The position numbers were made by a program, and so were the translations under genes. The notes beneath the pieces were generated by a model that saw only the letters and a program-made list of their open reading frames with translations, was not told where the DNA came from and ran no database searches. Shown here in pieces: positions 5,730-53,675 of a DNA stretch of 64,000 bases. The stretch lies in assembly GCF_003651245.1 (NCBI RefSeq), contig NZ_RAPE01000003.1, positions 62,001-126,000 of the forward strand, given 5' to 3'. Position 1 is the first letter of the stretch; each line of letters begins with the position of its first letter. Source of the stretch: Roseovarius spongiae (GTDB taxonomy: Bacteria > Pseudomonadota > Alphaproteobacteria > Rhodobacterales > Rhodobacteraceae).

Positions 5730-5834
5730 CAAATCCTTCCCGGGCCGGGCGGCCTCTTGTCCGTTGACGCGCGCATCGCGTCATTGTTCTGCCGACGCGC
5801 AAATCGCGCCGCCGCTCCCTTCATGTCGATAATC

Positions 5835-5871
5835 ACGAAAGCGCTTCGCCCCCTGAACGAAACGCTTTCGT
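5835..5871. promoter_or_regulatory. 9-bp inverted repeat in the proX-proW gap
   Basis: ACGAAAGCG and CGCTTTCGT are perfect reverse complements separated by 19 bp. They lie between the strong hairpin after proX and the start of proW. The element could be a second RNA structure or an operator. No regulator can be named. Confidence 0.4.
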
Positions 5872-5892
5872 CACTGTATCGACCAAGGTGAA

Positions 5893-5916
5893 GGGCGGCG
5901 CCCCTTGGCGCCGCCC
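5893..5916 (-). terminator. perfect GC hairpin directly after proX (attenuator or mRNA stabiliser)
   Basis: GGGCGGCGCC and GGCGCCGCCC form a perfect 10-bp stem with a 4-nt loop, 14 bp beyond the proX stop. On the transcribed strand there is no U-tract after it, so partial termination or 3'-end protection of proX mRNA is more likely than full termination. Such a hairpin would give more binding protein than ProW/ProV. Confidence 0.6.
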
Positions 5917-5930
5917 CGTTCGAAGCCGCG

Positions 5931-6899
5931 TTACTTCAGCAGCTTCGACAGGTTCTCCTTGGCGTCGTCGTTCAGCCAGGTTTTCCACGTATCCTTGTTG
6001 TTCTGAAGGTAGTGGGCCGCTGCTTCCTCGGCCGTGGCGTTGTTCTCGTCCATCCAGGCCAGAAGGCTGCTCATCTCGTCGGTCTTGAAGGACAGTTTCG
6101 ACATGAATTCCGCCTCTTCGGGGTGGGAGTCGACGAAATCCTTGGTCGCGATCGTCAGGATCGGAGCGGTCGGAAAGGCCGACGGCTTGGGATCGGGGGT
6201 GTTCGGGTTCTGGTTGGCCGCGTGGGCTTCCTCGTCGAACGGCCCGAGATCCACGCTGACCATGTCATACTTGCCCAGCGGGGTCGTCGGCCCCCAGTAG
6301 TAGCCGAACCACGGCTCCTCGTTCTCGTAGGCCGAGGCCATCGAGGTCGCCAGCGTTTCGCCCGAACCGTGGTTGAACACGCTGATGTCGTGCCCCTCGA
6401 GGTCAAAGGCGCGCGCCAGGTTGTCGCTGGCGATGCGGCAGCCCCAGCCGTCGGGGCAGTTGTTGAACCGGCCGCCGACCAATTCGGGATGTTCGAGCAC
6501 GCCCTGAATGGTCTTCAACTCGGGGTGTTCTTCGGCCAGGTAGGCGGGGATCCACCAGCCTTCGACCCCGCCGGGATCGAGGATGCTGGTCAGTTCGACG
6601 ATCTTGCCGCTCTTTTTCAGCTTGGTATAGACGTCGCCGGCCGAGTTCGGCCACATTTCCGGCACGATGTCCGGCTCGTTGTTTTCCGCAAGCGAGGTCA
6701 CGGCCGGCGTGGTGTCCGACGGCACGACCTTGACGTCGCAGCCATAGCCCTGCTCCAGCAGGAACTTGGCGACCGCCACGTCGATCTTGGCCGAGGCCCA
6801 GTTCATTTCAGCCATCGACACCTCGCCGCAATCGTCCGCGGCCATCGCGGCGGCGGGAAGCATCAGCGCCAGCGCGGTTCCGAGTAGATACTTTTTCAT
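5931..6899 (-). CDS. proX: glycine betaine/choline-type ABC substrate-binding protein (ProX/OpuAC family)
   Basis: Periplasmic solute-binding protein of 322 residues. MKKYLLGTALALMLPAAAMA is the signal peptide and the mature protein starts ADDCGEV. The OpuAC-type domain is full length, with aromatic residues that usually form the quaternary-ammonium box visible in PEMWPNS, GWWIPAYL and EPWFGYYWGPT. Two Cys pairs (DDCGE/GYGCDV and NNCPDGWGC) may be disulfides. The upstream in-frame extension lacks sense as a signal peptide and is rejected. First gene of the uptake operon. The exact substrate (glycine betaine, proline betaine or choline) cannot be settled by eye. Confidence 0.9.
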   Translation of the reverse strand: MKKYLLGTALALMLPAAAMAADDCGEVSMAEMNWASAKIDVAVAKFLLEQGYGCDVKVVPSDTTPAVTSLAENNEPDIVPEMWPNSAGDVYTKLKKSGKIVELTSILDPGGVEGWWIPAYLAEEHPELKTIQGVLEHPELVGGRFNNCPDGWGCRIASDNLARAFDLEGHDISVFNHGSGETLATSMASAYENEEPWFGYYWGPTTPLGKYDMVSVDLGPFDEEAHAANQNPNTPDPKPSAFPTAPILTIATKDFVDSHPEEAEFMSKLSFKTDEMSSLLAWMDENNATAEEAAAHYLQNNKDTWKTWLNDDAKENLSKLLK

Positions 6900-7206
6900 G
6901 ACGTCGTCTCCTCTTGATCTTCGTCTTCCTGCGGCCTGCCCATGGGATGAGCAGCCCGCAACTTCGCGCGGAAACAGCCGTGTCAGGCTGTCCGCGACGA
7001 GTTCGGCCGTAGACAAACAAAAGCGCGCCGGAGGTTCAACCGCTTCTGCGGTAATATTTTTTATTGAAGAATGGAACTTTTCTCGGGTTCGCCTTGCGCC
7101 TTGAAGGCGCAGGAGAATCAGGAGCGGCGGATCGTCCCGGATCCGCAATCATCACGCCAAGTTGACACTATGCGCGCTTTTATGCCTCGTTGGCGGACGG
7201 TGGTTC
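6900..7206. other. intergenic region upstream of proX (307 bp)
   Basis: No gene is supported here. The region holds an AT-rich tract (around 7050-7075) unlike the GC-rich surroundings, which probably contains the proX promoter. It also holds an inverted repeat at 7095-7111 (TGCGCCTT G AAGGCGCA), a possible operator or hairpin. I could not place convincing -35/-10 boxes. Confidence 0.5.
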
Positions 7207-7283
7207 TGGCGACCCCGGCAGGATTCGAACCTGCAACCTGCCCCTTAGGAGGGGGCTGCTCTATCCAGTTGAGCCACGGGGCC
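7207..7283 (-). tRNA. tRNA-Arg (anticodon CCT)
   Basis: The reverse strand folds as a full cloverleaf: acceptor GGCCCCG/CGGGGTC, D-arm GCTC/GAGC, anticodon stem GCCCC/GGGGC with loop CTCCTAA (anticodon CCT, reading AGG), T-arm GCAGG-TTCGAAT-CCTGC, discriminator G and an encoded CCA. No sign of an integrated element using it as attachment site. Confidence 0.95.
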
Positions 7284-7441
7284 GCTGCGGGGGGTCTTAG
7301 CGGGGCGCTCCGCGCTTGTCACGCGTGCGAACCGCCGGAGGCGGCAAAAAACTGAGCGCGCCGGTCCGCGCCGCTACGGCTTGCGCCGGGCGCGGAGGTT
7401 CGGCTAGCATCGGGCGATCTCTCTTGCGATTGCCGAGCGCC

Positions 7442-8467
7442 ATGACATCCCATGAAAAACGCCCGCTGACCCTGCGCGACGTCTCCGAGGCCTCGGGCGT
7501 GTCCGAGATGACGGTGAGCCGCGTGCTGCGCAACCGCGGCGACGTCTCCGACGCGACCCGCGAAAAGGTGCTGAGCACGGCCAAGGCGCTGGGGTACGTG
7601 CCCAACAAGATCGCGGGTGCGCTCGCCTCGTCGCGGGTGAACCTCGTGGCGGTGATCATCCCGTCGCTGTCCAACCTCGTCTTCCCCGAGGTGATGACCG
7701 GGATCAACGCCGCGCTTGACGACACCGGGTTGCAGCCGGTCGTGGGCGTGACCGGCTACAGTTCCGAAAAGGAAGCGAAAGTTCTCTACGAAATGCTGTC
7801 ATGGCGGCCCTCGGGGGTGATCATCGCCGGGCTCGAACATTCCGACGCCTCGCGCGCCATGCTGCGCGCGAGCGGGATTCCGGTGGTCGAGATCATGGAC
7901 GTGGACGGCACGCCGATCGACTCGGTGGTGGGGATCTCGCACCGCCGCGCGGGCGAGCAGATGGCGCGGGCGATCCTGCGCGCCGGGTATGAGCGGATCG
8001 GGTTCCTCGGCACCAAGATGCCGCGCGATCACCGGGCGCGCAAACGTTTCGAGGGGTTCACCGAGGCGCTGGCCAAGGGCGGGGTCGAGATCGCGGACCA
8101 GGAATTCTACGAGGGCGGCTCGGCGCTGGTGAAGGGGCGCGAGATGACGCAAACCATCCTGGCGCGCGATCCCGAGCTGGATTTCATCTATTACTCCAAC
8201 GACATGATCGGCGCGGGCGGGCTGCTGTGGCTGCTCGAACAGAAGGCAAGCATCCCCGACGAGATCGGGCTTGCCGGGTTCAACGGGCTGAACCTGCTCA
8301 AGGGGTTGCCGCGCGAACTGGCGACGATGGACGCGTGCCGGCACGAGATCGGACACCGCGCGGCGGAGATCATCGCGGCGCGGATAACGGATGCGGGCGA
8401 CCCCTCGCCGGTGCGCGTCGCGCTTGAACCGACGATCAGCTACGGCGATACGTTGCGGCGCCGCTGA
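7442..8467 (+). CDS. LacI-family transcriptional regulator (GntR-like branch)
   Basis: 341 residues. The helix-turn-helix at residues 9-35 (LRDVSEASGVSEMTVSRVLR) is canonical LacI, followed by the hinge (VPNKIAGALASSR) and a periplasmic-binding-protein-like effector domain (VNLVAVIIPSLSN ... AGFNGLNLL). Sequence features such as IPVVEIMD, a VGISHRRAGEQMA-type segment and AGFNG recall the LacI-family gluconate repressors. It is 315 bp upstream of, and in the same direction as, a TRAP transporter operon that it probably controls. The start chosen gives the compact HTH at the N-terminus; the upstream in-frame extension is rejected. Confidence 0.85.
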   Translation: MTSHEKRPLTLRDVSEASGVSEMTVSRVLRNRGDVSDATREKVLSTAKALGYVPNKIAGALASSRVNLVAVIIPSLSNLVFPEVMTGINAALDDTGLQPVVGVTGYSSEKEAKVLYEMLSWRPSGVIIAGLEHSDASRAMLRASGIPVVEIMDVDGTPIDSVVGISHRRAGEQMARAILRAGYERIGFLGTKMPRDHRARKRFEGFTEALAKGGVEIADQEFYEGGSALVKGREMTQTILARDPELDFIYYSNDMIGAGGLLWLLEQKASIPDEIGLAGFNGLNLLKGLPRELATMDACRHEIGHRAAEIIAARITDAGDPSPVRVALEPTISYGDTLRRR

Positions 8468-8782
8468 CAAGGCGTCCCGCGATTGATTCCGGTTGCAGGC
8501 TTGATGCGAGACGCTCACGACATGTGGATGGCCGGACCTCTTCGCGCTTCACCGACCCGGAGCGTGACGAATTCATCCGATAAACGCCTAGAGCCGGCGT
8601 CGACCCCATGACCGCAGGTCATGACGCAACCCGCTGTTTTCCGGCGTCCCGCTACGCGGCCAAAACGCCGCAACCCAGCTTTTGCTTGCGATATGGCCCA
8701 ACACGGTGTCTGCTCGGGTTCGAGCGCGCCGCACCGGCGCACCGCTCTGATGAAAACCGATCGAACCCTGGGAGGATAGATC
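8468..8782. other. regulatory gap between lacI-type gene and dctP (315 bp)
   Basis: No coding region is supported. The gap contains the perfect inverted repeat described separately and ends in GGGAGGATAGATC before dctP, a good ribosome binding site. I found no clear sigma70 or sigma54 promoter by eye. Confidence 0.5.
8607..8623. promoter_or_regulatory. perfect inverted repeat, candidate operator of the TRAP operon
   Basis: CATGACC-GCA-GGTCATG is a perfect 7+7 bp palindrome with a 3-bp centre, located 160 bp upstream of dctP and downstream of the LacI-family gene. LacI-family operators usually have an even-length centre with CpG, so this site may instead belong to another dimeric regulator. 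Confidence 0.45.
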
Positions 8783-9787
8783 ATGAAATTCGCAACCGCG
8801 GCCGCAATCGCCGCTCTGGCCCTCGGCGCGATGACCGGCGCCGCCACCGCCGCCTGCGACGACGGCGAGGTCGTCATCAAGTTCAGCCACGTCACCAACA
8901 CCGACAAACACCCCAAGGGGATTGCCGCCTCGCTGCTGTCGGAGCGCGTGAACGAGGAAATGGACGGCAAGGCCTGCATGGAGGTCTTCCCCAACTCGAC
9001 GCTTTATGACGACAACAAGGTGCTCGAGGCGCTGTTGCAGGGCGATGTGCAGCTTGCCGCGCCCTCGCTGTCCAAGTTCGAGGCCTTCACCAAGAAATAC
9101 CGCATGTTCGATCTGCCGTTCATGTTCAAGAACATCGATGCCGTGGACGCGTTCCAGAACTCGGAGGCGGGGCAGGCGATGAAGGACACGATGCAGCGCC
9201 GCGGCCTTCAGGGGCTGGCGTTCTGGCATAACGGGATGAAGCAGATGTCGGCGAACAAACCGCTGCTCGTGCCGTCGGACGCCGAGGGGCTGCGCTTCCG
9301 CGTGCAATCTTCGGACGTACTCGTGGCGCAGATGGAGGCGATCGGCGGCATCCCGCAGAAGATGGCCTTCTCCGAGGTTTACGGCGCGCTGCAACAAGGC
9401 GTCGTGGACGGGCAGGAGAACACCTGGTCCAACATCTACGGTAAGAAGTTCTTCGAGGTGCAGGACGGAATCACCGAAACCAACCACGGCGTGATCGACT
9501 ACATGGTCGTGACCTCGACCGAGTGGCTCGACAGCCTGGACGAGGACGTGCGCGAGCAGTTCCTGACCATCCTCGAAGAGGTGACCAAGACGCGCAACGC
9601 CGAATCCTACGAGGTCAACCAGGCCGCGCGCCAGGCGATCATCGACGCCGGCGGCGAGGTGCGCGAGCTGACGCCCGAGCAGCGCCAGGAATGGGTCGAC
9701 GCGATGAAACCCGTCTGGGAGCAGTTCGCCGAGGACGTCGGGCAGGAGAACATCGACGCCGCGCAGGAAATCAACGCGGGTCTGTAA
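8783..9787 (+). CDS. dctP: TRAP transporter substrate-binding protein, C4-dicarboxylate type
   Basis: 334 residues with a signal peptide (cleavage near ATAAC, residue about 24). The DctP fold is complete: VIKFSHVTNTDKHPKG, EVFPNSTLYDD, the segment LAFWHNGMKQMSAN, the substrate-carboxylate Arg region LRFRVQSSDVL, MAFSEVYGALQQGVVDGQEN and NHGVIDYM. These follow Rhodobacter DctP closely by recall. An unusual feature is a Cys pair near the N-terminus (AACDDGE and KACMEV), possibly a disulfide. It delivers substrate to the DctQM membrane subunits encoded just downstream. Confidence 0.9.
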   Translation: MKFATAAAIAALALGAMTGAATAACDDGEVVIKFSHVTNTDKHPKGIAASLLSERVNEEMDGKACMEVFPNSTLYDDNKVLEALLQGDVQLAAPSLSKFEAFTKKYRMFDLPFMFKNIDAVDAFQNSEAGQAMKDTMQRRGLQGLAFWHNGMKQMSANKPLLVPSDAEGLRFRVQSSDVLVAQMEAIGGIPQKMAFSEVYGALQQGVVDGQENTWSNIYGKKFFEVQDGITETNHGVIDYMVVTSTEWLDSLDEDVREQFLTILEEVTKTRNAESYEVNQAARQAIIDAGGEVRELTPEQRQEWVDAMKPVWEQFAEDVGQENIDAAQEINAGL

Positions 9788-9829
9788 CCGCGTGACGAAA
9801 AGGGGCCCGGCGGGAAACCGGACCCCCGC

Positions 9830-9858
9830 CGCCCCCGCCATCGCGCGCGGCGGGGGCG
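9830..9858 (+). terminator. strong GC hairpin between dctP and dctQ
   Basis: CGCCCCCGCC and GGCGGGGGCG make a perfect 10-bp stem with a 9-nt loop. It begins 42 bp after the dctP stop and ends just before the dctQ ribosome binding site. No U-tract follows. It probably protects the dctP message or attenuates readthrough. Confidence 0.55.
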
Positions 9859-9881
9859 CGACTTCGGGAGGGGACGACAAG

Positions 9882-10553
9882 ATGCATCCGAAACCGGGCG
9901 AAACCCTGGTCGACAGGATCGAGGAGAACCTGATCGCGTTCCTGCTGGGCGCGATGACGCTGATCACCTTCGCCAACGTGGTGCTGCGCAAGGGCTTCAA
10001 CTCGAACCTGCTGTGGGGGCTCGAACTGACCGTGTTCCTGTTTGGCTGGCTGGTGCTGCTGGGCGCGTCCTACGCGGTCAAGAAGGGGGCGCATCTGGGC
10101 GTTGACGTGATCATCGACATGGTCTCGCCGCCCGCGCGGCGCGTCCTCGGGTTGATCTCGGTCTCGGTCTGCATCGCGTTCTCGTTCCTGCTGCTCAAGG
10201 GAGCGTGGGACTACTGGGCCAATTTCGCCAACCTGCCGGCCACCACCGGGCGCTGGTTCCCGGCCGGGTTCGAGGACAAGTTCCTCGACAAGGGCTGGTA
10301 CGAGGTGAACGACGTGCCGCTTCCCGCCTTCCTCAACTGGATGAGCGATGCCTTCAACGAAGGCGAATCCTACAACAAGCTGCCCCGCCTGATACCCTAC
10401 GCGGTGCTGCCGCTGTCGATGGCGCTGCTGCTCTATCGCTTCATCCAGGCCGCCGTCCGGCTCTGGACCGGCAGGATCGACCGCGTCGTCGCCAGCCATG
10501 AGGTCGAGGACGAACTCGACAACGTGCGCGAACAGCGCGCAGAGGGCGCCTGA
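9882..10553 (+). CDS. dctQ: TRAP transporter small permease subunit
   Basis: 223 residues with four predicted membrane helices (LIAFLLGAMTLITFANVVL, GLELTVFLFGWLVLLGASYAV, RVLGLISVSVCIAFSFLLL, LIPYAVLPLSMALLLYRF). A soluble insert of about 60 residues lies between helices 3 and 4, as in the long DctQ forms of Rhodobacter. The RKGFNSNLLWGLELT motif is typical. The ATG chosen follows GGGAGGGG. The stop overlaps the dctM start by one base (TGATG), so the two membrane subunits are translationally coupled. Confidence 0.9.
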   Translation: MHPKPGETLVDRIEENLIAFLLGAMTLITFANVVLRKGFNSNLLWGLELTVFLFGWLVLLGASYAVKKGAHLGVDVIIDMVSPPARRVLGLISVSVCIAFSFLLLKGAWDYWANFANLPATTGRWFPAGFEDKFLDKGWYEVNDVPLPAFLNWMSDAFNEGESYNKLPRLIPYAVLPLSMALLLYRFIQAAVRLWTGRIDRVVASHEVEDELDNVREQRAEGA

Positions 10554-11947
10554 TGGCGGTCCTCCTGCTTTTCCTGCTGATCATCGGCCTCTTGATGATC
10601 GGCGTGCCCATCGCCGTGTCGCTGGGCATGTCGTCTATCCTGTTTCTGCTGTGGTTCTCGGACACGACGCTGGCCTCGGTGGCGCAGACGCTCTTCCAGG
10701 CGTTCGAGGGGCATTACACCCTGCTCGCCATCCCGTTCTTCATCCTCGCCAGTTCGTTCATGTCCACGGGCGGCGTGGCGCAACGGATCATCCGGTTTTC
10801 CATCGCCTGCGTGGGGCATCTGCGCGGCGGGCTCGCGATCTCGGGCGTGTTCGCCTGCATGATGTTCGCGGCGCTGTCGGGGTCGTCTCCGGCAACCGTG
10901 GTGGCGATCGGCTCGATCGTGATCGCGGCGATGCGGCAGGCGGGCTATACCCGCGAGTTCGCCGCCGGCGTGATCTGCAACGCCGGCACGCTGGGCATCC
11001 TGATCCCGCCCTCCATCGTCATGGTCGTCTATGCGGCCGCGGTCGAGGTGTCCGTGGGCCGCATGTTCCTCGCCGGGGTCATTCCTGGCATCCTCGCCGG
11101 GCTGATGCTGATGGTGGCGATCTACGTGCTGGCCCGGATCAAGGGCATGCCGGCCGGCGAATGGCGCGGCTGGCGCGAGATCGCCGCATCCTTCCGCGAT
11201 GCGCTCTGGGGGTTGTTGCTCATCGTGGTCATCATGGTCGGAATCTACGGCATCCCCGGCCTCACCGGCGCGTTCTTCACCCCGACCGAGGCGGCGGCGG
11301 TGGCGTCGGTCTATGCCTTCATCGTCGCATGTTTCATCTACCGCGACATGGGGCCGCTGGCCGCGCATGGCGACAGCCCGCGCCGCTCACTGCTGCGCGC
11401 GCCGCATGCGCTCGTCACTGCGTTCTTTCACCGCGACACGCGGCGCACGCTTTTCGAGGCGGGCAAGCTCACGGTCACGCTGATGTTCGTGATCGCCAAC
11501 GCGCTCATCCTGAAACACGTGCTGACCGAGGAGCAGATTCCGCAGATGGTCGCCCGCTCGATGCTGGACGCGGGGTTCGGGCCGGTGATGTTCCTCATCG
11601 CCGTCAACGTGATCCTGCTGATCGGCGGGCAGTTCATGGAGCCCTCGGGCCTTTTGGTGATCGTCGCGCCGCTGGTCTTTCCCATCGCCATCGAACTGGG
11701 GATCGACCCGATTCACCTGGGCGTCATCATGGTGGTCAACATGGAAATCGGAATGATCACGCCGCCGGTGGGGCTCAATCTCTTCGTGACATCGGGGGTC
11801 GCGGGGATGCCGATGATGGGGGTGGTGCGCGCGGCGCTGCCGTTCCTCGGCGTGCTCTTCATCTTCCTCATCATGGTGACCTACATCCCGTGGCTGTCCA
11901 CCTACCTGCCCAACATGCTGATGGGGCCGGAAATCATCACGAATTAG
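10553..11947 (+). CDS. dctM: TRAP transporter large permease subunit
   Basis: 464 residues, strongly hydrophobic, with about 12-14 membrane segments. Hallmarks of DctM are LLAIPFFILASSFMSTGG, ALSGSSPATVVAIGSIV, GTLGILIPPSIVMVVYA, a TPTEAAAVASVYA segment and GMITPPVGLNLFVTSG. It forms the sodium-coupled translocation unit with DctQ. A polar insert in the middle (HGDSPRRSLLRAPHALVTAFFH) makes it slightly longer than usual. Last gene of the operon; the next gene follows after 81 bp. Confidence 0.92.
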   Translation: MAVLLLFLLIIGLLMIGVPIAVSLGMSSILFLLWFSDTTLASVAQTLFQAFEGHYTLLAIPFFILASSFMSTGGVAQRIIRFSIACVGHLRGGLAISGVFACMMFAALSGSSPATVVAIGSIVIAAMRQAGYTREFAAGVICNAGTLGILIPPSIVMVVYAAAVEVSVGRMFLAGVIPGILAGLMLMVAIYVLARIKGMPAGEWRGWREIAASFRDALWGLLLIVVIMVGIYGIPGLTGAFFTPTEAAAVASVYAFIVACFIYRDMGPLAAHGDSPRRSLLRAPHALVTAFFHRDTRRTLFEAGKLTVTLMFVIANALILKHVLTEEQIPQMVARSMLDAGFGPVMFLIAVNVILLIGGQFMEPSGLLVIVAPLVFPIAIELGIDPIHLGVIMVVNMEIGMITPPVGLNLFVTSGVAGMPMMGVVRAALPFLGVLFIFLIMVTYIPWLSTYLPNMLMGPEIITN

Positions 11948-12028
11948 CGCGTTATCGCAAACAGAGTTTTCCCCGTCCGCGTTGTCCCCTAGTAAGGCGG
12001 CAACAACCGGGGCAGGAGCAGACGACCC

Positions 12029-13546
12029 ATGAGCACGCCAAGACCGGTGGTCCTGTGCATCCTCGACGGATGGGGCCTCTCGGAGCGCACCGAGGCCAAC
12101 GCGCCGCATCTCGCGCATACGCCGCATTTCGACGCGCTGATGGCGGAATGCCCGAATGCGCGGCTGGTCACGCACGGGCCCGACGTGGGCCTGCCGACCG
12201 GGCAGATGGGCAATTCCGAGGTCGGGCACATGAACATCGGCGCCGGCCGGGTGGTCGAGATGGACCTGCGCCGCATCGACCGCGCCATCGAGACCGGGAC
12301 ATTCGCGCGCCTGCCGGGCATCTTGCACTTCGCCGAGACGCTGCGCGCCTCCGGCGGCACGGCGCACCTGTTGGGGGTGCTGTCGGACGGGGGCGTTCAC
12401 AGCCACCTCGACCACATGATCGCGACCGCCCGCGCGCTCACCGCGCAAGGGCTGCGGGTGGCGATCCACGCCTTCACCGACGGGCGCGACGTGGCGCAGG
12501 TTTCGGCCAAGACCTATCTTGAGGAACTGCGCGCCGCCCTGCCCGTCGGCGCCTTCATCGCCACCGTGTCGGGGCGCTACTACGCGATGGACCGCGACAA
12601 TCGCTGGGAGCGGGTCAAGTTCGCCTACGAGGCGCTGGCGCAGGGGCGCGGCTATACAGCCGACACCGCCGGGGAGGCCATCGACGTGGCCTACGGCAAG
12701 GGGCGCACGGACGAGTTCATCAAGCCCCGCGTGCTCGGCGGCTATGCCGGCATGAAGGACGGCGACGGCATCCTCTGCCTCAACTTTCGCGCCGACCGCG
12801 CGCGCCAGCTTCTGGCGGCCTTCGCCGACCCGGACTTCGACGATTTCGAGACCGGCGCGCGCCCGAAATTCGCCATCGTCAGCGGCTTCACCGAGTATTC
12901 GCGCCGGCATTCGACCTACATGGACTGCATCTTTCCCGACGAGGCGCCCATCAACACGCTTTCCGCCTGGGTCGCGCGGCACGGGCGCACGCAGTTTCAC
13001 ATCGCCGAGACCGAAAAATACCCGCATGTCACCTTCTTCCTGAACGGCGGCAAGGAAGCCCCCGAGCAGGGTGAGGACCGCTACATGGCCACCTCGCCCA
13101 AGGTCGCGACCTATGACCTCGCCCCGGAAATGTCCGCCGAAGAGGTCAGCGATCACCTGGTCGGCGCCATCGGGAAACGATACGATCTGATCGTCGTGAA
13201 CTATGCGAACCCGGACATGGTGGGACATACCGGCGACCTCGCCGCGGCGATCAAAGCCTGCGAGGCGGTCGATGCCGGGCTGGGCCGCGCGATCACTGTG
13301 CTGCGCGAAGTCGGCGGCGCGATGATCGTCACGGCGGATCACGGCAATTGCGAGGTTATGGTCGACCCCGCGACCGGCGCGCCGCACACCGCGCACACCA
13401 CCAACCCGGTGCCGGTGATCCTCACCGGCGGCCCCGACGGGGCGGGCTTGCGCGACGGACGGCTCGCCGATCTCGCGCCGACGCTGCTGGAACTGATGGG
13501 CTTGTCCCAACCGCCCGAGATGACTGGGCGGAGCCTGCTGACATGA
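12029..13546 (+). CDS. gpmI: 2,3-bisphosphoglycerate-independent phosphoglycerate mutase
   Basis: Interconverts 3- and 2-phosphoglycerate in glycolysis/gluconeogenesis using two Mn ions. The 505-residue length is normal for the family. Visible motifs are LCILDGWGL (metal Asp13), GQMGNSEVGHMNIGAGR (phospho-acceptor Ser63), DGRDV, NFRADRARQL, NYANPDMVGHTG and TADHGNCE near the C-terminus with metal ligands. It is the first of a tight chain with envC-like and ctpA genes, overlapping the next gene by ATGA. Confidence 0.96.
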   Translation: MSTPRPVVLCILDGWGLSERTEANAPHLAHTPHFDALMAECPNARLVTHGPDVGLPTGQMGNSEVGHMNIGAGRVVEMDLRRIDRAIETGTFARLPGILHFAETLRASGGTAHLLGVLSDGGVHSHLDHMIATARALTAQGLRVAIHAFTDGRDVAQVSAKTYLEELRAALPVGAFIATVSGRYYAMDRDNRWERVKFAYEALAQGRGYTADTAGEAIDVAYGKGRTDEFIKPRVLGGYAGMKDGDGILCLNFRADRARQLLAAFADPDFDDFETGARPKFAIVSGFTEYSRRHSTYMDCIFPDEAPINTLSAWVARHGRTQFHIAETEKYPHVTFFLNGGKEAPEQGEDRYMATSPKVATYDLAPEMSAEEVSDHLVGAIGKRYDLIVVNYANPDMVGHTGDLAAAIKACEAVDAGLGRAITVLREVGGAMIVTADHGNCEVMVDPATGAPHTAHTTNPVPVILTGGPDGAGLRDGRLADLAPTLLELMGLSQPPEMTGRSLLT

Positions 13547-45413: not shown

Positions 45414-45414
<1 letters not shown>

Positions 45415-46406
45415 TGCGCGCGGCGCGATGGGCGGCGAGTTGCGCCGCCCTTCTCGCCGCAACGACGCTTGCGGGGCGCGCCCCGGCGCAGGATCGCCTC
45501 ATACTCGGCCTGCCGGTGGACTGCATCCTGGGCGAAACCTGCCACATCCAGCAATATACCGACCGCGACCCCGGCCCCGGCGTGCGCGATTTCATGTGTA
45601 ACGGGCTGACCTATGACGGGCACAAGGGCACCGATTTCGCCCTGCCCTCGCGCGCCGCCATGCGCGCGGGCGTGGCGGTCCTCGCCGCCGCGCCGGGGCG
45701 GGTGCGCGGCGTGCGCAACGCCATGGAGGATCGCGCCTATACCCCGGACATGGCTGCCGCGCTCGGCGGGCGCAATTGCGGCAACGGCGTGGTGATCGAC
45801 CACGGCGGCGGCTGGGAAACGCAGTATTGCCACATGCGAAAAGGGTCGGTCACGGTCCGCCCGGGCGACAGGGTAAAGCGCGGCGACAGGCTCGGCCTCG
45901 TCGGGCTGTCTGGGCGCACGCAGTTCCCGCACGCCCACCTGAGCGTGCGCCACGCAGGCCGCGTCGTCGATCCCTTCGCGCCGGACGGCCCCGTCGCCTG
46001 CGATGGCGCGCAGCCCTCGGATACGCTCTGGCAGGACACCCCCGCCTATGCGCCCGGCGGGATCATCGCCGCGGGCATCGCCACAACTGTTCCCTCCTTC
46101 GAGGAAATCAAGGACGGCGTCGCCCATGCCGCGACGCTGGACAGCGACGCGCCGGCGCTGGTCGGCTGGGGCTATGCCTTCGGCGGGCGCGCGGGCGATG
46201 TGGTGCGCCTCTCGCTCATGGGCGCGCGGGGCGAGATCGTGACCCATGACGCCACGCTCGACAAGGCGCAGGCGCAGTTCTTCCGCGCGGCCGGGCGCCG
46301 CGCGCGCGGGCGCGGCTGGGGGCCGGGGCGGATCGTGCTGCGGGTCACGCTGATCCGCGACGGCGAAGAGATCGACAGCGCCGAGGCATCCGCGCGGATC
46401 GAGTGA
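45414..46406 (+). CDS. exported M23-family (LytM) metallopeptidase
   Basis: 330 residues. A signal peptide (AALLAATTLAGRAPAQ) is followed by CILGETCHIQQYTDRDPGPG and the zinc site YDGHKGTDFALPS (HxxxD). The GNGVVIDHGGGWETQYCHMRKGSV segment and the closing HxH in FPHAHLSVRHAG show that the enzyme is intact, unlike the EnvC-like protein upstream at 13.5 kb. A C-terminal extension of about 110 residues (beta-rich, ending in VLRVTLIRDGEEI) is unassigned. It overlaps clpA by one base. Likely an endopeptidase of peptidoglycan. Confidence 0.9.
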
Positions 46407-46458: not shown

Positions 46459-48810
46459 CTACTTCTCGGTGAATTTCAGCTCGATCCGGCGGTTCTGCGC
46501 GCGCGCCTCCGCGCTGTCGCCTTCCGCCACCGGCTGCCACTGGCCAAAGCCGTTCGCGGCCAGGCGATCGGGCGGCAGGCCGAGCGTATCGATCATGTAG
46601 CGCACCACCGACAGGGCGCGCGCCTGGCTCAGTTCCCAGTTGTCGGCGAATTCCGAGGAGTTGCGGATCGGCACGTCATCCGTGTGCCCATCCACCCGGA
46701 TGATCCAGTCGATCCCGTCCGGGATGTCGTCCGCGACCTTCTGGATTATATCCGCCACCTTGGCGATCTCGCCCTTGCCCGCCTCCGACAGCGTCGCCTG
46801 TCCCGGCGGGAAGAGCACCTCGGAACTGAAGACGAAACGATCCCCCTCGATCCGCACACCTTCCTGCGCGCCCAGCACGTCGCGCAGCCTGCCGAAGAAT
46901 TCCGAGCGGTATTTCTCAAGGTCTTCCTTCTCCGCCGCCAGCCGCTCGCGTTCGGCGGCAAGCAGCGCGTTCTTCTCCTCCTCGGCCTCGCGGCGGCGGC
47001 GTTCCTCGGCCGCAACGCGGGCCAGCGCCTTGTTGAGCTCGCTGCCAAGCGCCTGAAGCTGCACGTCGGCGGCGGCTTCGCGGACCTCGGCGTCGTCCAG
47101 AAGCGCCTGCAACTCGCGCAATTGCGAACGCAGCGCCGCGACCTGCTGGTTGAGCAGCGCCTGTTCGCGCTGCGCCGCCTCCGTCGCGCCCTCCTGGCGG
47201 GCCAGCTCCTCGCGCGCCTGCGACAAGAGCGCGGCGCGTTCCTCTGCGCGGGAAAGCTGTTCGGCGGCGTCCTCTTCCGCGGCCAACTTCGCGGCGAGCG
47301 CCTCGGCGAGCTTCTCGCGCACCTCGTCGGCGCTCAGCGTCTGCTCGGTCGCGCTCGCCAGCAGCGCGGCGAGACGGGTCTGCGCCTGCTCAAGCTCCGC
47401 CTGCGTCGCGGCGAGCGTGCGGCGCAGCGCGTCAAGTTCGGTCTGCTGGTCCTGCCCGCGCTCCAGCGCATCGGCAAGCCGCTCCTCCAGCCCCGTGATC
47501 TGCGCGGCCAGTTCGGCCTCCTGCCGCTCGTTCGCGCCCAGCGAATCGGCCAGCCGCGCCTCGACCTCGCTCAGACGCAGGCGCAACTGGTCGGCCGCCG
47601 CGCGCTGGTCGCGCATCGCCGTCTGCGCGGTGTCGAGTTGGGCCTGCAAATCCTCCTTGTCCGCGGCCAGCGCCGCGGTCGCCGCTTCGGCGTCCGAGCG
47701 CGCATCGGCCAGCGCGGTCTCCACCTCGCGCAGGCGGCTGCGCAACGCCTCGATCGCGGCCTCGCGCGCGGCGATCTCCTCTTGCGCGTCGGCCAGCGCG
47801 GCCTCGATCTCGGCCTTCTCCGCCGACAGCGTCCGGACCGTGTCGCTGCGCGATTCCTCAAGGTCCGCCAGCCGGCCCTCGGCCTCCGCGAGTGACGATT
47901 CAAGCGTCGCGATCCGGTCGGCCTTCTCCTCCCCGGCCAGCAGCGCCGCGGCGAGCTTCGCGTTCAGATCGTCGCCCGCCTCGCGCGCGGCGGCCAGCAG
48001 GGTCAGCGTTTCCTCGGCCTTGCGCCGCTCCTCCTCGAGCGCGAGGGTCATCGCGGTCAGTTCCGTCTCGGCGTTCGCCAGCTTCTCGCGCAGCGCCTGC
48101 GCCGCGGCGGCCTGGGCAAGCCGGGCCTTCTCCTCCTCGCTAAGCTCGGCCTGCAATTCGTCGATCTGCGCGCCCAGCGCGCTCTGCGCCTCTGCAGCCT
48201 CGGCGTTCTGGGCGCGCAGGTCGGCGACCAGTTCCTCGAGAGCATCGGCCTGCGCGGCGGCAAGGCGCGCGGCTTCGGCCTCGGCGTCAATCTCGTCGCG
48301 CAGGTCCGCCAGCGCGAGTTGCAGCGCCTCCTGCTCATCGATCAGCGTTGCGCGCTCGTCCTCGAGCGCGGCGATACGCTCATCCCGGTCGCGCCCTTGC
48401 GCCAGAAGCCCCGCGACCTGTTCCTCGAAGCTGGCGATGCGCGCGTTCGCGGCCTCAAGCGCCTCGGCCTGCGCGTCGCGTTCGGAGCGCAGCGCGGAGA
48501 TCATCGCCACCTGTTCCTTCTCGCGCTGGCGCGCGTCGCCCAGCGTCGTGGTCAGCCGCCCCACCCGTTCGGTCAGCGTCGCGTTCCTGTCCTGTTCAAG
48601 ACCCAGCGCGCTGGCCAGCGCCGCAACCTCGGCGGACAGCTTGTCAAGCTGGGTTTCCTGCCCGCTGATCGTCTCGCGCAGGACGAACTGCACCACCATG
48701 AAGATCGTCAGCAGGAACATCAGCACCAGCAGCAAGCCGGTCATCGCGTCCACGAAGCCGGGCCAGATCGAGGCCTGGAACCGTTGGCCGGTGCGCCGCG
48801 ACAGGGCCAT
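46459..48810 (-). CDS. MotB-like protein: proton-channel helix, giant coiled coil, OmpA domain (783 aa)
   Basis: The N-terminus reads FQASIWPGFVDAMTGLLLVL with a single membrane helix (residues about 20-45), and Asp21 is placed like the proton-carrying Asp of MotB/ZorB. From about residue 50 to 640 the sequence is almost continuous heptad coiled coil, rich in Ala, Glu, Leu and Arg. It ends in an OmpA/MotB peptidoglycan-binding domain (VLFPPGQATLSEAG, RVDGHTDDVPIRN, ELSQARALSVVRYMID, ARAQNRRIELKF). It pairs with the MotA/ExbB-like gene 3 bp upstream. The function is unknown; a non-flagellar stator is likely. Confidence 0.85.
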   Translation of the reverse strand: MALSRRTGQRFQASIWPGFVDAMTGLLLVLMFLLTIFMVVQFVLRETISGQETQLDKLSAEVAALASALGLEQDRNATLTERVGRLTTTLGDARQREKEQVAMISALRSERDAQAEALEAANARIASFEEQVAGLLAQGRDRDERIAALEDERATLIDEQEALQLALADLRDEIDAEAEAARLAAAQADALEELVADLRAQNAEAAEAQSALGAQIDELQAELSEEEKARLAQAAAAQALREKLANAETELTAMTLALEEERRKAEETLTLLAAAREAGDDLNAKLAAALLAGEEKADRIATLESSLAEAEGRLADLEESRSDTVRTLSAEKAEIEAALADAQEEIAAREAAIEALRSRLREVETALADARSDAEAATAALAADKEDLQAQLDTAQTAMRDQRAAADQLRLRLSEVEARLADSLGANERQEAELAAQITGLEERLADALERGQDQQTELDALRRTLAATQAELEQAQTRLAALLASATEQTLSADEVREKLAEALAAKLAAEEDAAEQLSRAEERAALLSQAREELARQEGATEAAQREQALLNQQVAALRSQLRELQALLDDAEVREAAADVQLQALGSELNKALARVAAEERRRREAEEEKNALLAAERERLAAEKEDLEKYRSEFFGRLRDVLGAQEGVRIEGDRFVFSSEVLFPPGQATLSEAGKGEIAKVADIIQKVADDIPDGIDWIIRVDGHTDDVPIRNSSEFADNWELSQARALSVVRYMIDTLGLPPDRLAANGFGQWQPVAEGDSAEARAQNRRIELKFTEK

Positions 48811-48813
48811 GCG

Positions 48814-50028
48814 TCACTCCTCGCGCTCGGCGCGGGGGGCGGCGCGGCGGGGCGTTGGGGAGGGGCGCGCCTGGTTCAGCGCGCGGGTGAGCGTGGCCAG
48901 ATCCGTGCGCAGCTCGGTCATGGTTTCCTGCCGCCCCGCGCTCAACTCTTCAAGGATGCGCAGCATCTGCACGTCGATCGAGCGCAGGCGCATCCGGCTT
49001 TCGGCGTCGAGCCCGTGCCGGTCCTCCTCTGTCTCGCGCTCAGCAAGCCGCGCGGACAGCGCCTCCTGCGCCTCGGCGACGCGCTCCAGCGCGGCGTTGG
49101 TCTCGGCCACGCCCTCCATCCGTTCGGCCAGCCGCGACACCGACTCCGAAAGCGCGGCGAGGCGCTCATCGGCCATCGCGCGGCTGACGTCGGACTGGGT
49201 GAGCATCTGCTGCAGCGATTCCATCTGCTCGTTCATGTGATCCACCACCTCGCCCAGAACCGCCTCCTGCGGCGAGCCTTCGCCGTCGGCGGCGGAGGCG
49301 AGGCCGACCCGGGTGATGGTCGACATCCATTCCTCGAGCTCGCGGTAGAAACGATTCTGCCCGTGACCCGCGAACAGCTCCAGCAGTCCGACGATCAGCG
49401 ACCCGGCCAGCCCCAGCAACGAGGACGAGAACGCGACGCCCATCCCGCCAAGCTGCGATTCAAGCCCGGTCATCAGCCGGTTGAAGACCTCCACCCCGCT
49501 GTCGCCGTCCTGCGGGGCGAGGCTGCGGATGGTGTCGACGACGGCCGGAACGGTCGTGGCAAGGCCGTAGAAGGTACCCAGAAGACCGAGAAAGATCAGC
49601 ATGTTGACGATGTATCGGGTGATCTCGCGCGCCTCGTCGATGCGCTGCGCGACGGAATCGAGGATCGAGCGCGCCGAGGTCTGGGCGATCTGCATCCGCT
49701 TGCCGCGCTGGCGCAGCAGGGTCGCCAGCGGCTTCAGCAGCGGCGGCGCCTTGGTCATCTCGGTTCCCGGCCGCTCGCCGGCGAATCCCTCGAGCCAGCG
49801 CACTGACCCGATCAGCTGGAACATCTGCCAGAAACAGGCCACCGCCCCGATCGCGAAGACGAACAGGATCACCCCGTTCAGGTAGGGGTTCGCCTCGAAC
49901 ACGGGCAACACGCGCGGCAACGCCACGACCGCGCCGAAGCCCGACAGGCCCAGCACGATCATCATCATCACGATCTGACGCACGGGCTGCGAGAAGTAAT
50001 GCTCGACCTTACGGCCCGGCTTGTCCAT
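48814..50028 (-). CDS. MotA/TolQ/ExbB-like membrane protein with cytoplasmic coiled-coil tail (404 aa)
   Basis: The ATG with GGGAG upstream is preferred to an upstream GTG. Four membrane helices are visible: residues about 20-40, 48-70, 140-165 (IVNMLIFLGLLGTFYGLATTVP) and 200-225 (GMGVAFSSSLLGLAGSLIVGLL). The last two carry the Gly/Thr/Ser-rich signature of MotA/ExbB channels. From about 240 to the end there is an acidic helical tail with heptads (RLAALSESVSRLAERMEGVAE, LERVAEAQEALSARLAE) and a Pro/Arg-rich end. A long tail of this kind resembles ZorA. It is co-transcribed with the MotB-like gene. Confidence 0.85.
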   Translation of the reverse strand: MDKPGRKVEHYFSQPVRQIVMMMIVLGLSGFGAVVALPRVLPVFEANPYLNGVILFVFAIGAVACFWQMFQLIGSVRWLEGFAGERPGTEMTKAPPLLKPLATLLRQRGKRMQIAQTSARSILDSVAQRIDEAREITRYIVNMLIFLGLLGTFYGLATTVPAVVDTIRSLAPQDGDSGVEVFNRLMTGLESQLGGMGVAFSSSLLGLAGSLIVGLLELFAGHGQNRFYRELEEWMSTITRVGLASAADGEGSPQEAVLGEVVDHMNEQMESLQQMLTQSDVSRAMADERLAALSESVSRLAERMEGVAETNAALERVAEAQEALSARLAERETEEDRHGLDAESRMRLRSIDVQMLRILEELSAGRQETMTELRTDLATLTRALNQARPSPTPRRAAPRAEREE

Positions 50029-50107: not shown

Positions 50108-50638
50108 TCATGGCGCCATCTCACGCACGCGGGCCGACAGCCAGTCGAGGTCGGGATCGGTGATGCCCAGCGCGCCGAGATGGCTCGCGGTGTTGTAGAG
50201 ATACTCGGTGTTCGGGCCGCGCCCGCCGACCGCGCGGGCGATGATTTCCGCCTGATCCTCTAGCGGCAGACCGCCGCAATATTGCACGTGATCCTTGTCC
50301 ACCACGTAGGTCACCGCCCGCACCCTGCGCCCGTCGACCAGGTCGACATCGAGCATCCGCTCAAGATAGGCCGAGGAGATCAATTCGCGTTCCCGCAGGT
50401 AGGCCAGCACCCGGTCCTGCGCGGCCTCGCCCACCGACAGCGCCACGCCGAGGCAACTCGCCCCCGGCGCCGCGTCGAGCGCGAGCACGAGGCCCGGATT
50501 CTCGTCCGTGCCGCGATGGTGAATGCTGCGCATGCAAAAGCTGCGGGCATAGCCCGGAAGCGTCGCGATCACCTGTTCCTCGGTCTCGAAACCCGGGTTC
50601 CACACCAGCGAGCCATAACCGAACACCCACATCGTCAT
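50108..50638 (-). CDS. chaC: ChaC-type glutathione-specific gamma-glutamylcyclotransferase
   Basis: 176 residues. The substrate-binding motif VFGYGSLVWNPGF is at the N-terminus (YGSL). RSIHHRGTDENPGLVLALD and CLGVALSVGE follow, with a catalytic Glu expected in the ERELIS segment (LAYLRERELISSAY). It degrades glutathione to 5-oxoproline and Cys-Gly. GGAGGAAGG lies upstream. Divergent from the DUF2125 gene. Confidence 0.9.
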   Translation of the reverse strand: MTMWVFGYGSLVWNPGFETEEQVIATLPGYARSFCMRSIHHRGTDENPGLVLALDAAPGASCLGVALSVGEAAQDRVLAYLRERELISSAYLERMLDVDLVDGRRVRAVTYVVDKDHVQYCGGLPLEDQAEIIARAVGGRGPNTEYLYNTASHLGALGITDPDLDWLSARVREMAP

Positions 50639-50780
50639 TCCGTCACCTTCCTCCCGAGCGAGCCCGTTTTCGCAGCCGTCACCCCAAGATCCCGTGAAAC
50701 GGATTGTGGCGGCCGATGGCTGCCCTATAAACACCATCGGGTCTGCGCGTCAAAGGCCGCGATAACCGAAGGGGCCGAAC

Positions 50781-51795: not shown

Positions 51796-52761
51796 TCAGC
51801 GGCAGTAGGATCCGCTGCGATACCGCGCCGTGTCGAAATGGAAGTGATCGCGGTGAAACCGGTTCGCATCCGGCCCCAGAACCGTGCCGAACGGGCCGCA
51901 GGCGGCGCGGTGCATCCGGCGCAGGATGCGCCCCTCCGCGCCGCTGTTCCAGTCCGACAGCACGGTGATCTCGTTGCCGTCACGCAGAACGAAACCGGCG
52001 ATGTCGATGGCCCGACCGCGCCCATGTTCGGAGATCTTGGCGCCCCTCTGGTTGTTACGCGTCCGGCAGGCGTAATGCGCCACGACATGCAGCGCCCGCA
52101 CTCCGCCGCCGTAATTGCCGACCGCGGGCTTCATGCCGCCGTCTATCCATCGCTTGACGCTCTTGGCGGTGACGCAGTCCATCACCGCCTTCTGGCTGAG
52201 CGCGACGCCGCTGATTTCATGCACGCGCACGGCGTTCTCCACGCCGCAGCCGTTCAGCCGACCGGGAACGCGACCGATCTCGGCTCCCTGGATCGAGAGA
52301 TCGCCGCAGACCGCGCCGCGGGCGCGCTGCTGCTTGCGCGCGACCGCCTTCTTGGTGACGCCGCGGGGCCGCAGCAGCGGACGCAGCGAACTGAAGAGCC
52401 CGCGCCGTTCGGACGTGGCCGTAACACTCGCGGCGCTCGCGTCTTGGGGCGTCGCAATGGCCGCGCCGCGGCGCTGTTCGCGTTCGCCAACGGAAAGGGA
52501 CGCGGCGGCGTCCTGTCTGGAGGGCGCGGACGGTTGCGCGGCGCTTGCGGCCGCCTGCGCGGCGTCGTTCTTCGCGCCGGGTCGCTCGACCGGGCGGATG
52601 GCGCCCAGGCTTGATGCCGTGGCTTGCGGCGGCGGCGGGACGACGGCGGCGACAGCGACCGATCCGGGCCGCGCGACCGGGCGCAGCGATGTCTTGGGCG
52701 CCGTGGCCCACGCCATCCCGGCGCAACAGACCAGCATGGTGGCGATGACCAGGCGCTTCAC
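51796..52761 (-). CDS. extensin-like cell-wall protein with SLRPxxRP repeats
   Basis: 321 residues from a GTG overlapping the tyrA stop (GTGA). Signal peptide to about residue 19, then three copies of an RP motif at residues 25-32 (SLRPVARP), about 54-61 (AIRPVERP) and 125-132 (SLRPLLRP) in an Ala/Pro-rich linker. The C-terminal extensin-like domain (about 145-321) has CGDLSIQGAEIG, LNGCGVENAVRVHEISGV, HYACRTRNNQRGAKISEHGRGRAIDIAGF and DHFHFDTARYRSGSYCR. The His residues in SEHGRGRAID and HFHFD resemble the zinc ligands of VanY/DacB-type peptidases, so an endopeptidase-like activity is possible. Confidence 0.85.
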   Translation of the reverse strand: MKRLVIATMLVCCAGMAWATAPKTSLRPVARPGSVAVAAVVPPPPQATASSLGAIRPVERPGAKNDAAQAAASAAQPSAPSRQDAAASLSVGEREQRRGAAIATPQDASAASVTATSERRGLFSSLRPLLRPRGVTKKAVARKQQRARGAVCGDLSIQGAEIGRVPGRLNGCGVENAVRVHEISGVALSQKAVMDCVTAKSVKRWIDGGMKPAVGNYGGGVRALHVVAHYACRTRNNQRGAKISEHGRGRAIDIAGFVLRDGNEITVLSDWNSGAEGRILRRMHRAACGPFGTVLGPDANRFHRDHFHFDTARYRSGSYCR

Positions 52762-53675
52762 GTCTTCTTTCCCCTGCCGAAATCGGGGGCGTCGGTGTCC
52801 TGCCCGGCCTCGATGATGCCGCGCCGGATCGCGCGGGTGCGCGTGAAATAGGCGTGCAGGTGATCGCCGTCGCCAGTGCGGATCGCGCGTTGCAGCGCGA
52901 AGAGTTCCTCGGTGAAACGCCCGAGGATCTCGAGCGTGGCGTCGCGGTTGTTGAGGAACACGTCGCGCCACATGGTCGGATCGCTTGCCGCGATGCGGGT
53001 GAAATCGCGGAAACCCGCGGCGGAATACTTGATGACCTCGCTGTCGGTCACCCGGCGCAGGTCGTCCGCAACACCCACCATCGTGTAGGCGATGAGGTGC
53101 GGCGCGTGGCTCGTCACCGCGAGGACGAGGTCGTGATGATCAGCCTCCATCCGGTCGGTATGCGCGCCGATGCCCTGCCAGAGCGTTTCGAGCCTCTGGA
53201 CCGCGTCCTCATCGGCGCCCTCGGGCGGCACGATGAGGGTCCAGCGCCCCTCGAACAGTTCCGCAAAGCCCGAACGCGGCCCGGAATGCTCGGTCCCCGC
53301 CAGCGGGTGCGCGGGGACGAAATGCACGGCGTCCGGCAGGTGCGGGCCCACCGCCTCGATCACCGCGCGCTTGACCGAACCGACATCGCTCACCGTCGCG
53401 CCGGGTTTCAGGTGCGGTCCGATCTCGCGCGCGACGCCCTCCATCGCGCCGACGGGTACGCAAAGCACCACGAGGTCCGCGCCCTCGACCACCTCCGCGA
53501 GACTGTCGCAGATCCGGTCGCAGAGGCCGATTTCGCGCGCGACGTCGCGGGTTTCGGCCGAGCGGGCGAATCCCGTGACTTCGCCCGCCAGCCCCGCGCG
53601 CCGGATCGCCAGGGCCATCGACCCGGCGATCAGGCCCAGCCCGATCAGCGCGACGCGATTGTAAGGCGCGCTCAT
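52758..53675 (-). CDS. tyrA: prephenate/arogenate dehydrogenase
   Basis: 305 residues from the ATG overlapping the hisC stop. The NAD-binding fold is [21 protein letters not shown]; the active-site region has [30 protein letters not shown] (catalytic His) and [14 protein letters not shown]. It performs the oxidative decarboxylation step toward tyrosine. Operon order hisC, tyrA, extensin-like gene, each overlapping by 4 bp. Confidence 0.93.

Follow-up and report, generated by a model that had tools for sequence, protein, structure and literature searches.

A MotA/MotB-like gene pair with a long coiled coil of variable length in Roseovarius spongiae and other Alphaproteobacteria

The gene pair and its family

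We analyzed a stretch of 64,000 nucleotides of the genome of Roseovarius spongiae (Rhodobacterales; RefSeq assembly GCF_003651245.1, contig NZ_RAPE01000003.1, positions 62,001 to 126,000 of the forward strand), hereafter the window. Its minus strand carries two genes resembling the A and B subunits of stators such as MotAB: the A gene (48814-50028) is followed after 3 bases by the B gene (46459-48810). This was confirmed by translation, and agrees with a first-pass annotation made from the DNA letters alone. The ATG at 50028, which gives 404 amino acids (aa), aligns with the starts of most homologues (alignment A1); the mechanical open reading frame starts at GTG 50067 (417 aa). The features of the pair are the following.

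46459-48810, minus: B subunit, 783 aa, MotB-like, with a long coil (NCBIfam NF006542, 788.1 bits for a cut-off of 388; OmpA PF00691, 62.6 bits)
48814-50028, minus: A subunit, MotA/TolQ/ExbB/ZorA-like, 404 aa from the ATG (profiles, alignment of homologues, AlphaFold model)
48748-48750, minus: Asp21 codon, within the single membrane helix of B (WPGFVDA; aspartate in all distinct homologues)
46837-48678, minus: coiled-coil region of B, about residues 45-658, proline-free (3.5-residue period of large hydrophobics)
47371-47910, minus: hypervariable middle of the coil, residues 301-480, site of most length change (conservation in 22 sequences of similar length)
46489-46815, minus: OmpA-type peptidoglycan-binding domain of B, residues 666-774 (PF00691 match and motif patterns)
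49561-49599, minus: conserved A motif LIFLGLLGTFYGL, in the third transmembrane helix (TM3) by our own assignment (LGLLGTFxGL in 245 of 245 adjacent A subunits)
49396-49446, minus: conserved A motif GMGxAFSSSLLGLAGSL, in TM4 by our own assignment (strict GMGxAFxSSL in 231 of 245; many positions invariant in alignment A1)
48925-49008, minus: conserved tip of the A tail, DAESRMRLRSIDVQMLRILEELSAGRQE (counts of the pattern LRS[IM]DVQ)

B consists of an N-terminal helix with Asp21 in the motif WPGFVDA, a proline-free coil, and the OmpA domain. To place it among its relatives, we used the B proteins of the fetched loci and the window (277 proteins, 250 of them distinct), which comprise 203 sequences of a Rhodobacterales set and 47 others; the former includes L141 (titled Sphingomonadales) and L075 and L114 (titled Alphaproteobacteria only). 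Asp21, which the first-pass annotation had singled out in the membrane helix, is conserved throughout: an equivalent aspartate is found in 250 of 250 sequences, eight of which carry it as WPGWVDA or WPAFVDG, and it is invariant in alignments A2 and A4. The wall-binding motifs are intact as well, with [DE]GH[TA]D in 247, an NWxLSxxRA-like pattern in 243, and NRR[IV]E in 249 of the 250. The Asp and Arg of these OmpA motifs contact peptidoglycan.

Within the Rhodobacterales set, the A gene adjoins B in 201 of 203 distinct pairs; outside it, in 44 of 47. The two misses within the set are short stretches whose A gene is visible in the window and in L224. Of the three misses elsewhere, one lies at a contig end, and in the remaining two (L060/L259 and L268) no A is recognizable nearby; L259 and L268, one of them from a genome of about 1 Mb, thus keep the B gene without a recognizable A in the fetched stretch.

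The B family is already catalogued as NCBIfam NF006542 (PRK09039.1-1, "peptidoglycan -binding protein"), a name that gives neither function nor partner. B of the window exceeds the cut-off of this model and also that of NF006543 (329.5 bits for 305), and the PRK09039 family (NF006542 to NF006546) is the same family as B. The NF006542 model has a length of 627, compared with 783 aa for B of the window and up to 1157 aa in the relative L104. The first-pass annotation had suggested searching the order for the pair. At E up to 1e-20, NF006542 matches 195 of the 196 genomes sampled from the order, which all belong to one family, and 252 of the 385 sampled from the class, 10 of the latter matches being weaker than E 1e-40 and unchecked. 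Only 5 of the 385 class genomes exceed the curated cut-off, in keeping with the long form of the Rhodobacterales. None of the 14 control genomes, which include Caulobacter vibrioides and E. coli, has a match.

The A profile (alignment A1) has a single match in the R. spongiae genome at E up to 10, the A gene of the pair itself. Phage records gave no match to A, and 72,556 plasmid records gave five, every one in a Rhizobiaceae replicon larger than 3.5 Mb. A mobile element was rejected given this rarity and the synteny of the locus. The Sinorhizobium annotation calls the two proteins "MotA/TolQ/ExbB proton channel family protein" and "peptidoglycan -binding protein". We found no study of the pair in the open-licence literature; two papers list different "peptidoglycan-binding" proteins, of 385 aa in one case and a glycoside hydrolase in the other (PMC9938194, PMC5839243).

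Judging from its profiles, A is related to the MotA/TolQ/ExbB/ZorA superfamily. The first-pass annotation had named Zorya ZorAB as the nearest architecture and, by sequence, ZorA is indeed the best named profile match: the ZorA1 profile matches 14 of the 14 members of alignment A1 (best E 9.7e-15), including A of the window (8.4e-8). The Pfam model MotA_ExbB (PF01618) gives 17.0 bits for A of the window, below its gathering cut-off of 22.9, and matches 12 of the 14 members at E up to 0.1 (best 0.0006). A ZorA match at family strength is lacking, as NF033917 reaches 18.2 bits, under its cut-off of 500, and neither the TolQ model TIGR02796 (cut-off 221) nor the flagellar MotA model TIGR03818 (cut-off 303.8) gives a row for this protein at E up to 1. 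Searching the PDB with A of the window alone gave nothing useful; the A profile retrieved coiled-coil and helical-bundle chains, which are meaningless here.

The AlphaFold model of A, with a predicted local distance difference test (pLDDT) score of 79.4, is all helical. Its helices 29-59, 61-96, 129-182, and 191-260 and its helical tail at 267-400 bear out the four helices and long tail described in the first pass; the assignment of helices to the membrane is our own, on top of the model. Fold comparison of this model is headed by TolQ/ExbB chains (Z 11-12 over 185-198 residues), with Z of 11.9 for TolQ, 11.5 for ExbB, 10.5 for ZorA, and 9.8 for MotA, unrelated or designed helical bundles also reaching 10.1-10.6. 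When alignment A1 was compared with proteins of the same genome by hhalign, the probabilities were low (TolQ 22.6, ZorA 9.0, an ExbB-like protein 2.8, MotA 0.9), and BLASTP of the genome's own ZorA against A gave 21.6 bits. Hence, these values do not single out a nearest known motor. At the tip of the tail, the strict pattern LRS[IM]DVQ occurs in 180 of 201 A subunits within the Rhodobacterales set and in none of 44 outside it; for a looser pattern, the counts are 199 of 201 and 22 of 44.

A coil of variable length and conserved ends

The coil of B in the window spans 577 residues between the edges of the N-terminal and wall-binding profiles, with no proline and 14 glycines. Its large hydrophobic residues (VILMFYW) recur with a period of 3.5 residues, with a power of 1.07 compared with a mean of 0.16 and a maximum of 0.68 in 200 shuffles. 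When alanine is added to the hydrophobics, the signal at 3.5 is 0.44 and not above the shuffles (mean 0.22, maximum 1.16). A single heptad phase holds in nearly all segments from about residue 51 to 316, followed by several shifts. The first-pass annotation had described about 590 residues of continuous heptads: the long heptad coil stands, at 577 residues, but it does not keep one unbroken register. The period is shared by the relatives, the best value being 3.5 in 170 and 3.52 in 31 of the 203 sequences of the Rhodobacterales set. We rejected the idea that the coil is a low-complexity artefact, given the period of the large hydrophobics, the lack of proline, and the heptad length steps described below.

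Across the family, the coil ranges from 101 to 951 residues, and both ends are conserved. It spans 258 to 951 residues (272 to 951 without L141; median 446) in the Rhodobacterales set, and 101 to 446 (median 224) outside it. The longest coils, of 839-951 residues in B proteins of 1045-1157 residues, are those of L104, L115, L118, L125, and L112. In 22 sequences of similar length, residues 61-300 and 481-660 are conserved and residues 301-480 are not, with a mean conservation of 0.28-0.42 in this middle part against 0.56-0.79 at residues 61-300. Coil length and length of the A tail show a weak rank correlation (0.165, p=0.019, uncorrected for relatedness), and we do not claim that a longer tail accompanies a longer coil.

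The length differences between close relatives tend to be whole heptads. Among overlapping pairs of sequences with unequal coil length, grouped by identity of the flanking domains, the difference is a multiple of seven in 16/18 pairs at identities of 0.95 and above, 36/60 at 0.90-0.95, and 64/198 at 0.85-0.90; this excess fades with divergence (221/1017 at 0.80-0.85 and 749/4444 at 0.75-0.80). With disjoint pairs in nested sets, heptad multiples are 4/5, 12/23, and 22/47 at thresholds of 0.95, 0.90, and 0.85, with P values against 1/7 of 0.002, 2e-5, and 1e-7, relatedness being otherwise uncorrected. Another 13 of the 47 disjoint pairs leave a remainder of 3 or 4, as expected of stutters. As a control, the length of A from the TM3 motif to the stop gives 0/3, 1/26, and 13/171 heptad multiples in overlapping pairs by identity bands. 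Together with the wide range of lengths, these steps suggest a tendency to keep the register between helix and wall-binding domain but not the length. This range with conserved ends, and the whole-heptad differences between close relatives, are new.

At 0.1485 nm per residue, a straight coil would measure about 86 nm for 577 residues and about 141 nm for 951. The width of the periplasm is a few tens of nm. The coil of the window is thus far too long to stand straight across it.

Known motors and genomic surroundings

The genome has its own copies of the known motors at other loci. Its TolQ (275.9 bits for a cut-off of 221) lies elsewhere on the contig of the pair, and its flagellar MotA (360.8 bits for 303.8) on another contig, about 4.5 kb from a FliM/FliN match. 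A third contig carries a complete type I Zorya operon (ZorA 833.6, ZorB 384.4, ZorC 514.3, and ZorD 1287.8 bits), and an ExbB-like gene falls below the cut-offs. Hence, the pair is none of TolQ, flagellar MotA, or ZorABCD, which upholds the first-pass view of a stator-like pair distinct from MotAB and TolQR. The Zorya operon, at L305 (C1:1038000-1057000), occupies positions 5483-13092 of that locus on the minus strand and encodes ZorA, ZorB, ZorC, and ZorD of 694, 365, 437, and 1042 aa; upstream of it lies a gene of 1081 aa that looks helicase-like by eye.

The pair shares with ZorAB an A subunit with an apparently TolQ/MotA-like core and a helical C-terminal tail, and a B subunit with one helix, the aspartate, and an OmpA domain. 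We read the ZorB encoded here as having a coil, too, between its helix and its OmpA domain, which makes the pair of the window look like a core-genome cousin of the Zorya motor. It differs from Zorya in that the similarity is weak (29.4 bits, compared with 833.6 for the genome's own ZorA), in being near-universal in the order rather than sporadic, in the coil of about 577 residues, and in having no zorC, zorD, or zorE among the scanned neighbours, the true Zorya being present separately. ZorAB has been described as a 5:2 motor whose tail is cytoplasmic and whose role in defence requires wall binding (PMC11890865).

Other systems resemble the pair in part. The fold of A recalls TolQR and ExbBD (Z 11-12, subject to the caveat of the helical bundles), but TolR and ExbD are not known to carry an OmpA domain or a long coil, both of which B of the window has, and the genome's TolQ lies elsewhere. 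Flagellar MotAB shares the aspartate and the OmpA-type wall-binding domain of B; unlike it, the family has a long coil linking the helix to the OmpA domain and occurs in genomes without a FliM/FliN match, and A has no clear similarity to the genome's own MotA. Domain II of TolA, a helical force transducer, is likewise a periplasmic stretch that varies in length and is often helical: one study gives 110-335 residues, reports that in gammaproteobacteria this exceeds the width of the periplasm, and reads it as "excess reach" (PMC12204202). The family studied here has 101-951 residues with dimer-type heptads, and a wall-binding domain at the end. Finally, a 2025 survey of MotAB and its relatives describes non-flagellar relatives with "extraordinarily large periplasmic domains" and reports that the B subunits of its non-flagellar sample show no OmpA homology (PMC12505986); the family studied here differs from the latter in carrying an OmpA domain.

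The pair is flanked on one side by chaC, a DUF2125 gene, and an extensin-like gene; the other side has genes for an M23 peptidase, clpA, gloB, and a methyltransferase. In line with the first-pass annotation, no flagellar, tol, or zor gene is found among the scanned neighbours. The neighbour upstream of A is the following.

50108-50737, minus: chaC-like gene, same-strand upstream neighbour of A, syntenic (Pfam ChaC, 147.6 bits)

Among the 80 named loci of relatives, which are the best 80 of 586, chaC was found in 78 and B likewise in 78 (the remaining two loci stop shortly after A); 67 have DUF2125, 62 have clpA, and 44 have the M23 peptidase. The protein with an extensin-like C-terminal domain (window 51796-52890) and the M23 peptidase (45414-46406) are possible links to the cell wall near the pair.

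Beyond the order, the genes around the pair are different: elongation factor P and inositol monophosphatase are followed by an OmpA-domain protein and then A. This OmpA-domain protein, of about 106-843 residues, lies directly upstream of A on the same strand in 31 of 41 loci. In the examples read, it has a signal-peptide-like start, a proline-rich stretch, and a C-terminal OmpA-like domain in which the RRLSxxRAxxVR part is mostly kept and GHTD is lacking; examples within L243-L282 are L249:8591-10150 (minus), L246:3129-4409 (plus), and L276:2144-4675 (plus). Among the ten loci without it, L260 ends just upstream of B, L265 has no pair, L259 and L268 have no recognizable A, and L142, L256, L257, L263, L266, and L275 have the pair alone. 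The protein is a candidate third component outside the order of the window. The idea that coil expansion replaced it is unsupported, as it is also missing at short coils (137 residues in L142, 187 in L256, and 137 in L257). Within the order, searches with it gave matches in 40 of 41 genomes at E up to 1e-5 (best 2.1e-11; 1.2e-6 in R. spongiae), which we read as other OmpA domains. The nearest inositol monophosphatase of R. spongiae (58% identity, C10:422551) has none of the 12 OmpA matches of the genome nearby.

A putative wall-anchored motor and its alternatives

The pair of the window is typical of the widespread family to which it belongs, and this family is probably an unstudied type of ion motor with an unusual arm. 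The first-pass annotation had overlooked that the family is catalogued and near-universal in the order, that a genuine Zorya lies elsewhere, and that coil length changes in heptad steps. The reading that we favour, and consider probable, is a chromosomally fixed housekeeping motor of the MotAB/TolQR/ExbBD/ZorAB superfamily, of the 5:2 type, driven by ions in the inner membrane and anchored to the wall, with the coil as an over-long tether or shaft. By analogy, B would form a dimer whose two membrane helices sit inside a ring of A subunits, perhaps five. Protons or sodium ions would pass Asp21 and the conserved Thr/Ser of A, and A would turn relative to B. The B dimer would leave the membrane as a two-stranded coiled coil whose OmpA domains hold peptidoglycan and, since it is far longer than the periplasm is wide, this coil would be bent, or would run obliquely to the membrane or along it. 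A register-locked, over-long tether or shaft of this kind could keep the motor anchored across a wide range of distances. Work may be delivered through the helical tail of A, taken as cytoplasmic, to a partner, or outward to the envelope.

Several results weigh against this proposal or parts of it. In 54 of the 138 tandem arrays found in these genes, the period is a multiple of 21 bases, and slippage of 21-bp repeats may be a partial mutational cause of the heptad steps; the gene of the window itself has no such array. For B, AlphaFold gives a poor model (pLDDT 69, predicted template modelling score 0.30), in which the long helices are interrupted by low-confidence breaks at about 220-275 and 453-494; a single straight rod thus gets no support, and this model neither proves nor excludes bending of the coil. 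For A, the Z scores of 10-12 are within the range reached by unrelated or designed helical bundles, and Foldseek found no PDB match at E up to 0.001 (the best being TolQ, 1.8e-3). In addition, 133 of the 385 class genomes have no NF006542 match, i.e., the motor is not universal in the class, and the absence of the strict tail-tip motif outside the Rhodobacterales set suggests that a cytoplasmic partner, if any, is perhaps not class-wide.

Among the alternatives, the pair could be an anti-phage defence motor of the Zorya kind with its effectors elsewhere, as ZorA and ZorB are the best named sequence profiles for A and the genuine ZorB of the genome seems to have a coil as well. We find this improbable: the family is near-universal in the sampled order and syntenic, unlike a defence island, the scanned neighbours hold no zorC, zorD, or zorE, and a full ZorABCD operon sits at another locus. 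A second or auxiliary flagellar stator would explain a MotB-like B whose OmpA domain has MotB proteins as its best PDB sequence matches. Comparing the B model with FliM/FliN (matches at E up to 0.001) over the 385 class genomes, we found that 170 match both, 82 only B, 74 only FliM/FliN, and 59 neither. Hence, 82 of the 252 genomes with B have no FliM/FliN match, although not all assemblies are complete and the ten weak B matches account for five of the 82. The fold of A also ranks TolQ/ExbB above MotA, and the genome's own MotA is above its cut-off on the contig of the FliM/FliN match. A flagellar role is thus very improbable.

Two further alternatives concern what the arm does. If A and B no longer conducted ions, the pair would be a passive, flexible link from inner membrane to wall, for which the huge tolerance in coil length (101-951 residues) might speak; the invariance of the aspartate in B (250/250) and of the TM3 motif in A (245/245) is what one expects of a working pore, and makes such a tether improbable. 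The pair might also sense envelope tension, the wall-anchored coil gating ion flow or the rotation of A by the distance between membrane and wall, and the tail tip signalling to a cytoplasmic partner. The over-long coil and the conserved tail tip go together with this idea, and wall binding has been proposed to open the ZorAB channel (PMC11890865). On the other hand, a slack coil of 86 nm would presumably transmit tension poorly, and no neighbour gene is common to the compared loci inside and outside the Rhodobacterales, and we consider a tension sensor rather unlikely.

A bolder reading is a class-wide housekeeping rotary motor related to the motor module of Zorya, which drives, or is braked by, a torsionally coupled coil shaft that extends along the periplasm and not across it. 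With a shaft free in length but fixed in register, selection would preserve the twist between the helix and the pair of wall-binding domains while lineages add or drop heptads. We put this forward tentatively, as a speculation.

An ion-driven motor matched in almost every genome sampled from the order and around two thirds of those from the class, yet named merely "peptidoglycan-binding protein", would point to an energised process of the envelope that is so far unstudied. The pair may be a housekeeping cousin of the Zorya motor. Its heptad-stepped coil provides a natural length series, of about 15 to 141 nm if straight, with which a tether, a ruler, and a drive shaft could be told apart.

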